Position numbers and translations under genes: made by a program. Of a DNA stretch of 33,282 bases, positions 18,873 to 29,906 are shown piece after piece. The stretch lies in assembly GCA_903829085.1 (NCBI GenBank), contig CAIKOL010000211.1, positions 1-33,282 on the forward strand, read 5' to 3'. Position 1 is the first letter of the stretch. Each line of letters opens with the position of its first letter. The notes beneath the pieces were generated by a model. It did not search any database. It was given only the letters and a program-made list of their open reading frames with translations, and was not told the origin of the DNA. The DNA comes from an uncultured Anaerolineales bacterium (GTDB lineage: Bacteria; Chloroflexota; Anaerolineae; Anaerolineales; Villigracilaceae).

Positions 18873-21800
18873 TTAAGGCAATGTAAAGCGCATCACCCGG
18901 TTATTGGCTGCATCGCTCACCCAAACATGCCCGTAGGAGTCCACCGCTATGGAAGCAGCCAAACCGAAATTCCCTGCACCAATCCCATATTCGCCCCATG
19001 TGCGGACAAAAGCGCCGTTCGCAGAAAATTCGATCACGCGAAATGCTTCCGGGTCGGTTATAAATATATGGCCTTGATCGTCTGCGGCGATATAGGGTTT
19101 GTTATCCAACGATTCACCATACCAACCAGCGATATCCCATTGGTCAAGGGGACTATAGGTTGAGCCATCTTCGCTGGGGGCGAAAACCTGAACTCGTTGA
19201 TTCCATGTATCAGCCACATACAAGTAGCCGCGATGATCAAATGCCAAACCGACCGGCTCCTCGAACTGACCTATATCCAGTCCTTCGCTACCGATTTGCA
19301 TGATGAAATTCCCGTCAGCATCATAGACAACGATACGCTTGTTCCCTGTATCTGCTACAAAGACGCGCCCCTGTGCGTCCACAGCGATTCCACGTGGTCC
19401 CCATATTCCAAAGGGGTCGGTAGAAGTGGGATCATAAAGAGGCGTGCCCCACATTGCCACTGGAGTTCCGCTGGCAGTGAATTTCTGGATACGATGATTC
19501 CAGGTATCCGCCACATAGATGAAATCTCCTTCAGGCGAGACTGCCACAGCCCAGGGCTGGTTGAATGTACCCATGGGGGTATTACCAGCGGTGACATCGC
19601 TAAAAGAACCCCAGGAATTAAGGAACCGTCCATCAGCGGAGATGTGCTGAATGCGATTGTTGTTCGTATCGGCGATATAAAGAGTCCCGTCGGGAGCAAT
19701 GGCGATACCATGTGGGGTATTAAATTGATCATCTGATGTGCCGCTTACTCCGAAGGTCAGATCCGCAGGAAGGGATAGTTTACCTTGCTCATAGGGATCT
19801 GGTTGAACAGTCGAGGCAGTGATCACTCCATATTCCCAAATTTCAGCAGCCACGTCTTTACGAATAAAAAGGGCCATTTTATCGCTGGGACTCCAATCCG
19901 GAAGAGTCAGCCCGGTCTTTCCAGTCGCAGCAGCGTACTGTGAATAATCCCGATTGAACCAGATTTTCCAAAAGGCAGCCCGCATAGAAGGATCGGAAAG
20001 GGCCGTCTGGATGCGAGCCCAGGTAAGATTGAAATAATCCTGGTTCGGCCATACCATACGAATGTAATCAACCTGATAATAATCATTGGCAACAATCGGC
20101 TTGATGGCGTCAAAATTCTTCTGATCTACAAGAATCGCCGGGAGGCCAGCAAGATCCGGACCCGGTTTATCAAAGGAAGTCTTATTGAGGTAATGACGTA
20201 AATACCAGGTGAAAGGCCAGGCTACTCCCCCGTCCGGGGAGCTGTTATCGAACACCAGTTTAAGTGTCTGGTCTCCAGCAGTGCGGTCGGAGATCGCATC
20301 AATTTGGGCCATGACATCTTTGATACCAGTGGCGCCGTGTGCATAAACTAAATACTCGGTTGCGTCATTTGGATGGAGAAAAGCGGCGCGGAGGGCAGTG
20401 CGCATCGTAAGGATAGCCAACAAACCGAAAAAGACAAGCACAGCGGCTTTCAGGGTATTTCGAACCTGGCGGCCTTTCTGTAAATATACCAGCGTACCGG
20501 CGCTGGCGAGAGAGCTGAGAGCCGCGAATAGGAACGTTCCAGTGGCTGATAATTGAGCCAGCGACTTCCCCTGGAAGGGAGGGGCAACTCCCAGGACAAG
20601 CCCTATAGCGCCAGTCAGACCGACAAAGAAAACCACCAATAGAACGAAAGCCCAAACCCCGCGGCTACGAAACCAAGACCAGTCGAAACGCTCGAGCACC
20701 TGGCCAAGTCCCCAGCCGGTAAGGAGGATCATTGGCAGGGTGATGTGCACTGTGAGCCAAGGCATTTTTTCGCCGGCGATAGAAAAGGCAAACAAGCTGG
20801 ACAATGCCCACCAAAATAGCAAGCCGAAAGCGGGAGCTTTTTCCGGGGATACTTCAGACAGCGAGGCAGTTTCTGATGGATTTTCCTGAGAAAGGGGCTT
20901 TGGCGATTTTCGGCGCAGCCCAAAGAAGACTGCAATCCCGAGTCCAAGAGCGGGTAAAAATTCATAGACCGGAATTTGAATCAAAAGGTAGTAATACCAA
21001 GGTTGGCTTCCACGGTGGACACCCTGTTGTACCAGCCAGTAACCCAGCGACCCAACCACTCCGGTAGCAAGCCCGGGCCAATTGGTAAAGATGCTGGTGT
21101 AGAAAAGGATGTAAATGCTCCAGAATATGGCGGTATTTACCAACCAGTGTTTCCAGTCCCAAAGGAGACCAATACCAATGGCGAGGATAACCAATACGAT
21201 CAAGACCAAGGCGGTTTTGACCGGACCTTGCGCCCAAAGAGCAGGCCAATTCCAACCTGGCCAGGTAAATATGTAATCAAGCGGGTTCCAACCCAATGCA
21301 GTAACCGGAATGGGAGCCAATTGAGGCAGAACAAACGTTCCGAGCAGAATCAACAACCCAAAAGAGCGCTCGCGACACAGGTTTTTCCAACCATAACCGA
21401 TGATGAGAAGGGTGAGTGAGACGACAAAGATGATAGCTGCCAGAACCACCAAGGAGGTGACTGCGGGTAGGTGAGATGCAAGGGTGGAGGCCGTGAGCGT
21501 AGCCCCAGGGATAACCGGTGCAGAAGTCTGAGCCGCATCCGTCGCAGCCTGGGTGCGGGAATAGAGTGCGACTCCAAGGGCGGCACCAATGAGCAGGATG
21601 CAAATCGACAAACTCACGAAGAAACTATTCAATATTCCCTTATTTTTCCAAGGCGCACGCGTTACCCGGTTAACTAAATAGAATGTCAAAAAGAGCAGCG
21701 CCTGGGCTGTATAAATAAAGGCGGTTTCTTTAACAGTGAAGTGCAAGGCGGTGGCGACAGTCAAAAGGATTAAATAGCGCTTCTTTCCTGTTTCCAGGTG

Positions 21801-22292
21801 GCGCAAGATAACGTACAGAGTCAGAACCCCTAACAGCGCTACAAAAGCTTCATTACGCGCATATCGCCCGTAATAAAGCATGTAAGGCGAGATGAGTACC
21901 AATCCAGCGGCAATCAACATACCGGCACGGCCGAGGTAGCGTCGCCAATTCCAAAGCAAGACAACCGTCAGGATGCTGGCAAAAGCATGGGGAAGCCGAG
22001 CAGTGAAATCGCTGTCGCCGAACAAGATATATGTAAGCGCCAGCAAATGGAACTGGAGCGGTCCGTGCGTGGTGGGATTGTGTTGGTACCCCTGGCCAAT
22101 CGAAAAGAGCCAGGAATAATAGGCGTGAAGGCTTTCGTCATGACTTAGGGCCCGCGTTCCCAAATTGTACAATCGGCTGACAGCCATGAGGACAACAATG
22201 ATGACGAAAAGAAGCATTTCACCGGTAAAAGCTGGGATTGTATCAAAAAGGGGACGGTCAAGCCAGGAGCGTTGGTGTTGAAAATCATTCAT
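18873..22292 (-). CDS. Agl23/GT39-like multi-pass membrane protein fused to six-blade NHL beta-propeller
   Basis: N-terminal 'ALSHDESLHAYYSWLFSIGQGYQHNPTTHGPLQFHLLAL' and many TM segments; C-terminal repeats TLYIADTNNNRIQ, FIYVADTWNHRIQ, VFVADTGNKRIV, LYVADTWNQRVQ, IFITDPEAFRVI, VWVSDAANNRVM. Start at MNDFQHQ (AGGTG upstream). Confidence 0.88.
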   Translation of the reverse strand: MNDFQHQRSWLDRPLFDTIPAFTGEMLLFVIIVVLMAVSRLYNLGTRALSHDESLHAYYSWLFSIGQGYQHNPTTHGPLQFHLLALTYILFGDSDFTARLPHAFASILTVVLLWNWRRYLGRAGMLIAAGLVLISPYMLYYGRYARNEAFVALLGVLTLYVILRHLETGKKRYLILLTVATALHFTVKETAFIYTAQALLFLTFYLVNRVTRAPWKNKGILNSFFVSLSICILLIGAALGVALYSRTQAATDAAQTSAPVIPGATLTASTLASHLPAVTSLVVLAAIIFVVSLTLLIIGYGWKNLCRERSFGLLILLGTFVLPQLAPIPVTALGWNPLDYIFTWPGWNWPALWAQGPVKTALVLIVLVILAIGIGLLWDWKHWLVNTAIFWSIYILFYTSIFTNWPGLATGVVGSLGYWLVQQGVHRGSQPWYYYLLIQIPVYEFLPALGLGIAVFFGLRRKSPKPLSQENPSETASLSEVSPEKAPAFGLLFWWALSSLFAFSIAGEKMPWLTVHITLPMILLTGWGLGQVLERFDWSWFRSRGVWAFVLLVVFFVGLTGAIGLVLGVAPPFQGKSLAQLSATGTFLFAALSSLASAGTLVYLQKGRQVRNTLKAAVLVFFGLLAILTMRTALRAAFLHPNDATEYLVYAHGATGIKDVMAQIDAISDRTAGDQTLKLVFDNSSPDGGVAWPFTWYLRHYLNKTSFDKPGPDLAGLPAILVDQKNFDAIKPIVANDYYQVDYIRMVWPNQDYFNLTWARIQTALSDPSMRAAFWKIWFNRDYSQYAAATGKTGLTLPDWSPSDKMALFIRKDVAAEIWEYGVITASTVQPDPYEQGKLSLPADLTFGVSGTSDDQFNTPHGIAIAPDGTLYIADTNNNRIQHISADGRFLNSWGSFSDVTAGNTPMGTFNQPWAVAVSPEGDFIYVADTWNHRIQKFTASGTPVAMWGTPLYDPTSTDPFGIWGPRGIAVDAQGRVFVADTGNKRIVVYDADGNFIMQIGSEGLDIGQFEEPVGLAFDHRGYLYVADTWNQRVQVFAPSEDGSTYSPLDQWDIAGWYGESLDNKPYIAADDQGHIFITDPEAFRVIEFSANGAFVRTWGEYGIGAGNFGLAASIAVDSYGHVWVSDAANNRVMRFTLP

Positions 22293-22431
22293 GCGAAAGC
22301 ACCTGCACATATTTATAGGATGGAGAAGCTGAGGATACTGCAAAGCCAACAATCTGGCAAGCGCAGAAGAGACAAGAATATATAATGCGCATAGCCAATA
22401 GCATAATTAGAATATATTCACAATCTTTTTA

Positions 22432-28654: not shown

Positions 28655-29872
28655 TTAAAAAAGGACTGGTTGAATTGCAGCCCGCCGACCATCCAATAGC
28701 AGGAAGGGAGCGGCTTTTTCAGCCAAAACCCCCAATTTTCTCAAGGAGGTCACATCCCTGATGCTTGCCTGGCGACGTGCCTGCAGGATGATATCAGCGC
28801 CCTTTGGCCCAATTCCAGGGATGCGAAGCAACATATGACGGTCGGCGCGGTTAATCTCAATTGGCTGGTCCTTCAAATTCTGCTGCGCCCAAGCAAGTTT
28901 TGGATCACTCTGAACCGGGAGACTACCATCTGTTCCAAAGGGCAGTTCCTCCAAATCGAAGCCGTAATCCCGAAGCAGGAAGGAGGCCTGGTACAGGCGG
29001 TGTTCCCGGATGGGAGGGGTAGGCGCCTGGTTTTCCAGCGGGGTTCCGGGGATGGGGTTAAAACGTGAATAATAGGCGCGCTTGAGGCCGAGACGATGGT
29101 AAAGATAAGAGGTGGCAGTCAGCAATTCAAGATCCGATTCACCGGCACCTCCCGCAACAAACTGGGTCACAGAGGAGGGCCAGCGGCCGTTCCAGCCGCG
29201 AGAGGCCGGCTGGCTGCGGCGAATTTCGTCCATCCACTTTAACGGCTGGAGCAGTTCTTCAATAAACTGTTTGTGAGGAGCCAGGCGAAGAAGGCGTTCG
29301 GTGTTGGGCGCCTCGAGGTTGACCGACACCCGGTCAGCCAACTGCATGGCGCGTTCCACCTGGGCGCGCTCAGCCCCGGGCATCACCTTGAGATGAATAT
29401 AGCCATGGAAACCCAGTTTATGACGCAAAATGTCAGCGGTATCGATGAGTTTATCCTGTGAACGGACCCCGCCCCCGGCAACGCCTGAGCTGAGAAACAA
29501 TCCCTCGGTGAGACCTTTGCGGGTGAGCATGAAAAACAGGCGGGCGAATTCCTCCGGTTGGAAGGTGGCACGCCGGAAATCCCGTCCAGCGCGGAAGGGG
29601 CAATAATAGCAATCACGCTCGCAGACGGAGGAGAGCAGGGTTTTCAGGAGCTTGATGTGTTGGCCGTTTGGTAGAACAGCGGGATGTACAAAGACAGAGT
29701 CGGGGCAGTTGTCAGTCCGGTCAAGATAGGGACCTTCGCTTGCAAGCAGCCTGGAGGATAGATCCGGCTTCCTGCCCAACCCAAAGGGCCGGCCGGCGAC
29801 AAAACAACGCTCTTCATCTGTTTCGAAGGACATCTGTTCTGACAGGGTTTTCAAGCGGACAAGAGCATCCAT
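28655..29872 (-). CDS. Radical SAM protein with C-terminal HhH domain (putative DNA modification/repair family)
   Basis: 'SSVCERDCYYCPFRAGRDFRRATFQPEEFA' CxxxCxxC; C-terminal 'INRADRHMLLRIPGIGPKGADIILQARR' HhH. Matches my recollection of the rSAM_link_UDG family. Confidence 0.9.
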   Translation of the reverse strand: MDALVRLKTLSEQMSFETDEERCFVAGRPFGLGRKPDLSSRLLASEGPYLDRTDNCPDSVFVHPAVLPNGQHIKLLKTLLSSVCERDCYYCPFRAGRDFRRATFQPEEFARLFFMLTRKGLTEGLFLSSGVAGGGVRSQDKLIDTADILRHKLGFHGYIHLKVMPGAERAQVERAMQLADRVSVNLEAPNTERLLRLAPHKQFIEELLQPLKWMDEIRRSQPASRGWNGRWPSSVTQFVAGGAGESDLELLTATSYLYHRLGLKRAYYSRFNPIPGTPLENQAPTPPIREHRLYQASFLLRDYGFDLEELPFGTDGSLPVQSDPKLAWAQQNLKDQPIEINRADRHMLLRIPGIGPKGADIILQARRQASIRDVTSLRKLGVLAEKAAPFLLLDGRRAAIQPVLF

Positions 29873-29878
29873 ATCCCC

Positions 29879-29906
29879 ATTATAGGACAGATGTTCTAAT
29901 TGTCAA
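29879..29906 (-). promoter_or_regulatory. Promoter of radical SAM gene with embedded LexA-like dyad
   Basis: Minus strand TTGACA-N16-TATAAT-N6-ATG; spacer contains AGAACATCTGTCC. Confidence 0.8.

Follow-up and report, generated by a model that had tools for sequence, protein, structure and literature searches.

A conserved LexA-type operator is predicted to control a partnerless radical-SAM gene in Anaerolineae

The window analysed here, a stretch of 33,282 nucleotides from an uncultured Anaerolineales bacterium, carries on its minus strand a gene for a radical-SAM protein with two LexA-like 12-mers at its start. A sequence-only reading had proposed that the two form paired LexA operators, which raises the question of whether this gene belongs to the SOS response and, if so, through which of the two sites. 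Both 12-mers were found on the minus strand as reported, GAACATCTGTCC at 29885-29896 and GAACAGATGTCC at 29828-29839, and the counts given for their agreement with the Gram-positive SOS box GAACRNRYGTTC, 10/12 and 11/12, are correct. The features of the locus are as follows.

29901..29906, minus strand: -35 element TTGACA of the radical-SAM gene promoter; TTG(A) is kept in most orthologues
29885..29896, minus strand: putative LexA operator GAACATCTGTCC, within the 16-nt spacer between -35 and -10; supported by orthologue conservation and by the motif of the genome's own lexA and recA
29879..29884, minus strand: -10 element TATAAT, conserved among orthologues
29872..29878, minus strand: 6-nt gap and first base of the ATG, the transcription start predicted from the sequence
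29828..29839, minus strand: second LexA-like 12-mer GAACAGATGTCC, codons 12-15 (E-Q-M-S), not regarded as an operator
28655..29872, minus strand: lone radical-SAM protein of 405 aa with CX3CX2C and a C-terminal helix-hairpin-helix (HhH), related to TIGR03916

On the minus strand (29879-29906 plus the start codon), the promoter reads TTGACA-ATTA-GAACATCTGTCC-TATAAT-GGGGAT-ATG. Its two hexamers match the consensus at 12 of 12 positions with a spacer of 16 nt, and the first box lies entirely within this spacer, as had been claimed, where binding would block the promoter. Across the 78 orthologues, the gap between the -10 element and the ATG is 6 nt in 60 and 7 nt in 10; with the usual distance from -10 to +1, transcription would start at the ATG. 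Given this spacing in 70 of the 78, the mRNA is predicted to be leaderless, with its start at or beside the ATG.

The LexA motif of this lineage was then taken from the genome itself (G000, 3.24 Mb, 80% complete), in which the profile models used find a single full lexA and a single recA. Its LexA has the LexA_DNA_bind and Peptidase_S24 domains and, read by eye, the Ala-Gly site, the GDSM serine and the TLK lysine. The lexA promoter reads TTGACA-TA-GAACGAGTGTTC-GTAT-TATAAT and that of recA TTGACG-CTTC-GAACATTTGTGC-TATACT. Hence, when the lexA and recA promoters are checked for the motif, as the sequence-only reading had suggested, they carry the same one as the radical-SAM gene: the palindrome lies between -35 and -10 in all three promoters, and in recA and the radical-SAM gene it is in identical register. 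The right half of the radical-SAM operator is imperfect (GTCC), and so is that of the recA box (GTGC). GAACN4GTTC is also used by Dehalococcoides.

Among 30 lexA loci collected from relatives, GAACN4GTTC occurs without mismatch upstream of the gene in 28, nearly all beside TTGAC. Of 30 recA loci, 17 have a spacer box with no more than one mismatch, almost all from the same family as the window; this tally counts promoter-spacer boxes, the raw script count of 19 having included two spurious ones. In many families other than the window's own, recA has no recognisable box in these 30 loci. One further recA box (L247) is visible just beyond the scanned range. A second recA-like promoter, TTGACGCATCGAACATTTGTGC, is found in G000 at C81:25-46 (L093), where it is ended by the contig end; it perhaps comes from another strain in the bin.

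The palindrome could in principle be the operator of another, LexA-like repressor, since the genome holds a second, weak TIGR00498 match (C371, 22 bits). This match is confined to an HTH-only region, however, the protein giving no match to the protease half, and the same motif stands at the same promoter position before lexA itself in nearly all relatives and before recA in the same genome. We regard a repressor other than LexA as very improbable.

Conservation among orthologues was the other genomic check that had been named, and the promoter box is kept in close and distant relatives alike. Of 78 Anaerolineae orthologues, 69 carry GAACN4GTTC, allowing one mismatch, within 45 nt upstream of the ATG, as opposed to 0.97% of 10,776 control windows; these orthologues form a separate collection, which has some genomes in common with the 30-locus set of relatives and whose sequences are related by descent. 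In 73 orthologues a box could be placed, and in 69 of these its start is 24-25 nt upstream of the ATG; most of the 30 relatives' radical-SAM loci show the same promoter/box block. Outside the order, 8 of 20 radical-SAM loci have an exact upstream box (three of them within the class but in other families, five in the rest of the phylum, other classes included) and one has a box with a single mismatch. No box was found upstream of the remaining 11 of these 20, which belong to several other Chloroflexota families, so LexA control is not universal. It should also be noted that the operator overlaps the promoter, and part of the box conservation is therefore promoter conservation. In five orthologues (L047, L049 and L177-L179) an AGAACA(T/C) half-site stands behind the -10 element and extends into the start codon, as though the operator were displaced downstream.

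The box might also be a chance likeness, the promoter being strong and constitutive and its spacer resembling a LexA box by accident, and a count restricted to the window, one mismatch allowed, indeed shows only mild enrichment of the pattern (9 matches versus 3.9 expected). Against this, chance would have to account for 69 of 78 orthologues when 1.0% of control windows carry a box, as well as for the conservation in other classes; it is thereby already refuted, and we leave it practically no weight. Over the whole genome, GAACANNTGTYC has 18 exact strand matches versus 1 when the pattern is reversed as a control; for the promoter-embedded form TTGAN{4,7}GAACNNNNGTNC the counts are 23 versus 4 in the own genome and about 49 versus 1 across nine relatives. 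A perfect GAACN4GTTC 12-mer elsewhere in the window, GAACAAACGTTC at 21329-21340, has the window's top PWM score; it lies within a gene for 1159 aa (18873-22352) and is probably due to chance.

The second 12-mer is, as had been described, a near copy just inside the coding region, where it spans codons 12-15. When the fetched DNA, a pool of 116,364 positions in which boxes are already enriched, is scored with a PWM trained on the relatives' lexA boxes only, both radical-SAM boxes come within the best 33; since the two score equal, the PWM alone cannot separate them, but conservation does. The coding copy is kept with at most one mismatch in just 1 of 78 orthologues. At residues 12-14 the orthologues have SQM in 43 and EQM in 8 of 78, and the DNA looks LexA-like where this Gln-Met, conserved as protein, has Glu before it and Ser after it. 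Hence, the pairing of operators is not supported. If both boxes did cooperate, with LexA dimers on the promoter and coding boxes 57 bp apart giving stronger or cooperative repression, the near identity and equal score of the 12-mers would be explained, and several members of the same genus do retain GAACAGATGTC- at the place of the coding box. Beyond the genus, however, this box is gone and only the Gln-Met codons that supply its core persist, and a distance of 57 bp does not correspond to an integral number of helical turns; such cooperation appears unlikely. The coding copy may bind LexA in vitro, although nothing indicates selection for such binding.

Taken together, the proposal of LexA-like control through the promoter box has come through both genomic comparisons, with the lexA/recA motif and with the relatives, and LexA/SOS control of the radical-SAM gene by way of this single box is well supported at the level of sequence. 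DNA damage very probably induces the gene, given the conserved LexA site built into its promoter. In the undamaged cell, LexA sitting between -35 and -10 would stand in the way of RNA polymerase; once DNA is damaged, self-cleavage of LexA, set off by RecA filaments, would free the promoter to fire, yielding a leaderless mRNA for the radical-SAM/HhH protein. This protein would then probably act by radical chemistry on damaged or modified DNA, and would do so without the DUF4130-type partner that its relatives elsewhere have. The joint explanation, in which 29885-29896 is a LexA operator, the leaderless mRNA is induced by damage and the product is a partnerless DNA-acting protein, is one that we hold with high confidence. 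It draws on the identity of the motif with that of the own lexA and recA, on its position in the promoter, on its deep conservation and on the absence of the partner family; from these, LexA binding, induction by damage, the leaderless start and the enzyme's activity and substrate are predicted.

The assignment of the gene to a DNA modification/repair family was right in kind. The best NCBIfam match is TIGR03916 (rSAM_link_UDG, 'putative DNA modification/repair radical SAM protein'), which we equate with COG4277, but its score of 277.3 bits is under the curated cut-off of 343.5. Of the hallmarks of TIGR03916, the CX3CX2C motif with a C-terminal HhH is present, while the curated score and the linked partner are both missing. 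Cys84, Cys88 and Cys91 of CX3CX2C are invariant; the Radical_SAM domain match is above its cut-off and that of HHH_3 below. An AlphaFold model built from 48 alignment rows has a mean pLDDT of 89.3, and its best PDB matches in Foldseek are radical-SAM enzymes (HydE first, followed by HydG, biotin synthase and PylB), whose TM-scores relative to the query are near 0.45. The radical-SAM core is common to the model and these matches, which does not imply their function. Matches by sequence to solved chains are limited to the HhH part (ComEA HhH chains).

The partner was looked for with TIGR03915, which we take to be DUF4130. A search for TIGR03915 alone found it in 0 of 61 genomes, although it did find it in 2 control genomes, and next-gene checks of the radical-SAM loci gave no DUF4130-type partner. 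When the neighbours of 80 loci were clustered, a SET-domain gene was found downstream in 25 and an NBR1 Ig-like gene in 10, with no conserved repair-gene operon partner among the recurrent downstream clusters identified. The radical-SAM gene is directly followed by uvrB in one genome and by recO in another, both of other classes. A reading as phage defence is unsupported, PADLOC having given no match for the radical-SAM protein.

SOS regulation of related genes has been described in other phyla. The COG1573-COG4277 operon, which encodes a uracil-DNA glycosylase (UDG) and an HhH/radical-SAM protein, is SOS-regulated in Bacteroidetes (PMC8565304), and work cited there (its references 7 and 65) is given for such operons in Verrucomicrobia and Alphaproteobacteria. 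These operons likewise have a LexA-type operator before a gene thought to be of the same family, with a predicted role in base repair after damage; in contrast, the gene described here stands alone, without a DUF4130/TIGR03915 partner, its operator is of the GAACN4GTTC type and its promoter looks leaderless. GAAC-N4-GTTC is the Gram-positive SOS box, or LexA motif, of B. subtilis and M. tuberculosis (PMC3323433), and the palindrome is identical here, although the host belongs to Chloroflexota and the recA and radical-SAM boxes have GTGC and GTCC right halves. SplB-type radical-SAM photolyases are also SOS-regulated in several species (PMC8565304), which is likewise a radical-SAM enzyme under LexA (predicted, in our case); SplB (COG1533) is nevertheless a different family from the HydE/biotin-synthase-like barrel plus HhH found here, and no spore photolyase lyase is among the best 50 fold matches listed. 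DUF4130 has been linked with SplB-like radical-SAM proteins and uracil-DNA glycosylases (PMC3765255).

The SOS control of COG4277-UDG operons being already known in other phyla, it is the partnerless Anaerolineae gene that is new, and the literature searched gave no published LexA regulon for Chloroflexota, Anaerolineae included. Tentatively, and with the odds somewhat against it, the radical-SAM/HhH protein might be a core SOS effector in Anaerolineae that repairs or edits DNA alone, by an undescribed radical chemistry, without a uracil-DNA-glycosylase/DUF4130 partner and from a fused operator-promoter-start-codon unit. The analysis yields a genome-derived LexA motif and candidate targets for Anaerolineae, a large and mostly uncultured group; furthermore, it assigns to the DNA-damage response an enzyme of undescribed chemistry that lacks its usual partner, so that the function becomes directly testable.

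Other candidate LexA-box promoters were met in the regulon, which was sampled through pattern searches and fetched loci. In G000, promoters of the form TTGACAA...GAACNNNNGTTCTA gave 6 matches versus 0 for the control (L090, L092, L026, L094, L099 and L107; also L097). No gene start is evident immediately after them; a gene for a SAM hydroxide adenosyltransferase begins about 400 nt downstream in L026. The DNA after the promoter in L092, L094, L099, L107 and L026 has common repeats with paired hairpins (GTTTGATTTGCnnAAAAAC; CTATTCGTTTGTTTCC...GGAAACAAACGAATA), for which Rfam gave no credible match, and these may possibly represent an SOS-driven non-coding repeat element.

In 7 of 9 relatives, a LexA-box promoter precedes a hydrophobic, membrane-like protein of about 250 aa with the signature ..FNYSTTEFAL.D.LGDL.FAG.RWATILA.AFCGIDFAGIAR.. 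(L192, L207, L194, L195, L197, L215, L198, L199 and L200). The first 120 residues of one member gave no Pfam match, and the family is a candidate core SOS gene. A small AAA/FtsK-like ATPase gene lies behind tandem LexA boxes in G000:C388 (L110/L111), with a possible counterpart behind one LexA box in G048 (L201). In G000:C379 (L109), an excisionase-like protein of 65 aa (HTH_17) is encoded behind a promoter with a perfect box, GAACAAATGTTC, and a transposase-like ORF comes next. Finally, four loci from relatives (L203, L206, L208 and L210) encode small proteins, DUF4287-type or similar, behind LexA-box promoters, the DUF4287 match itself being to L210 only.
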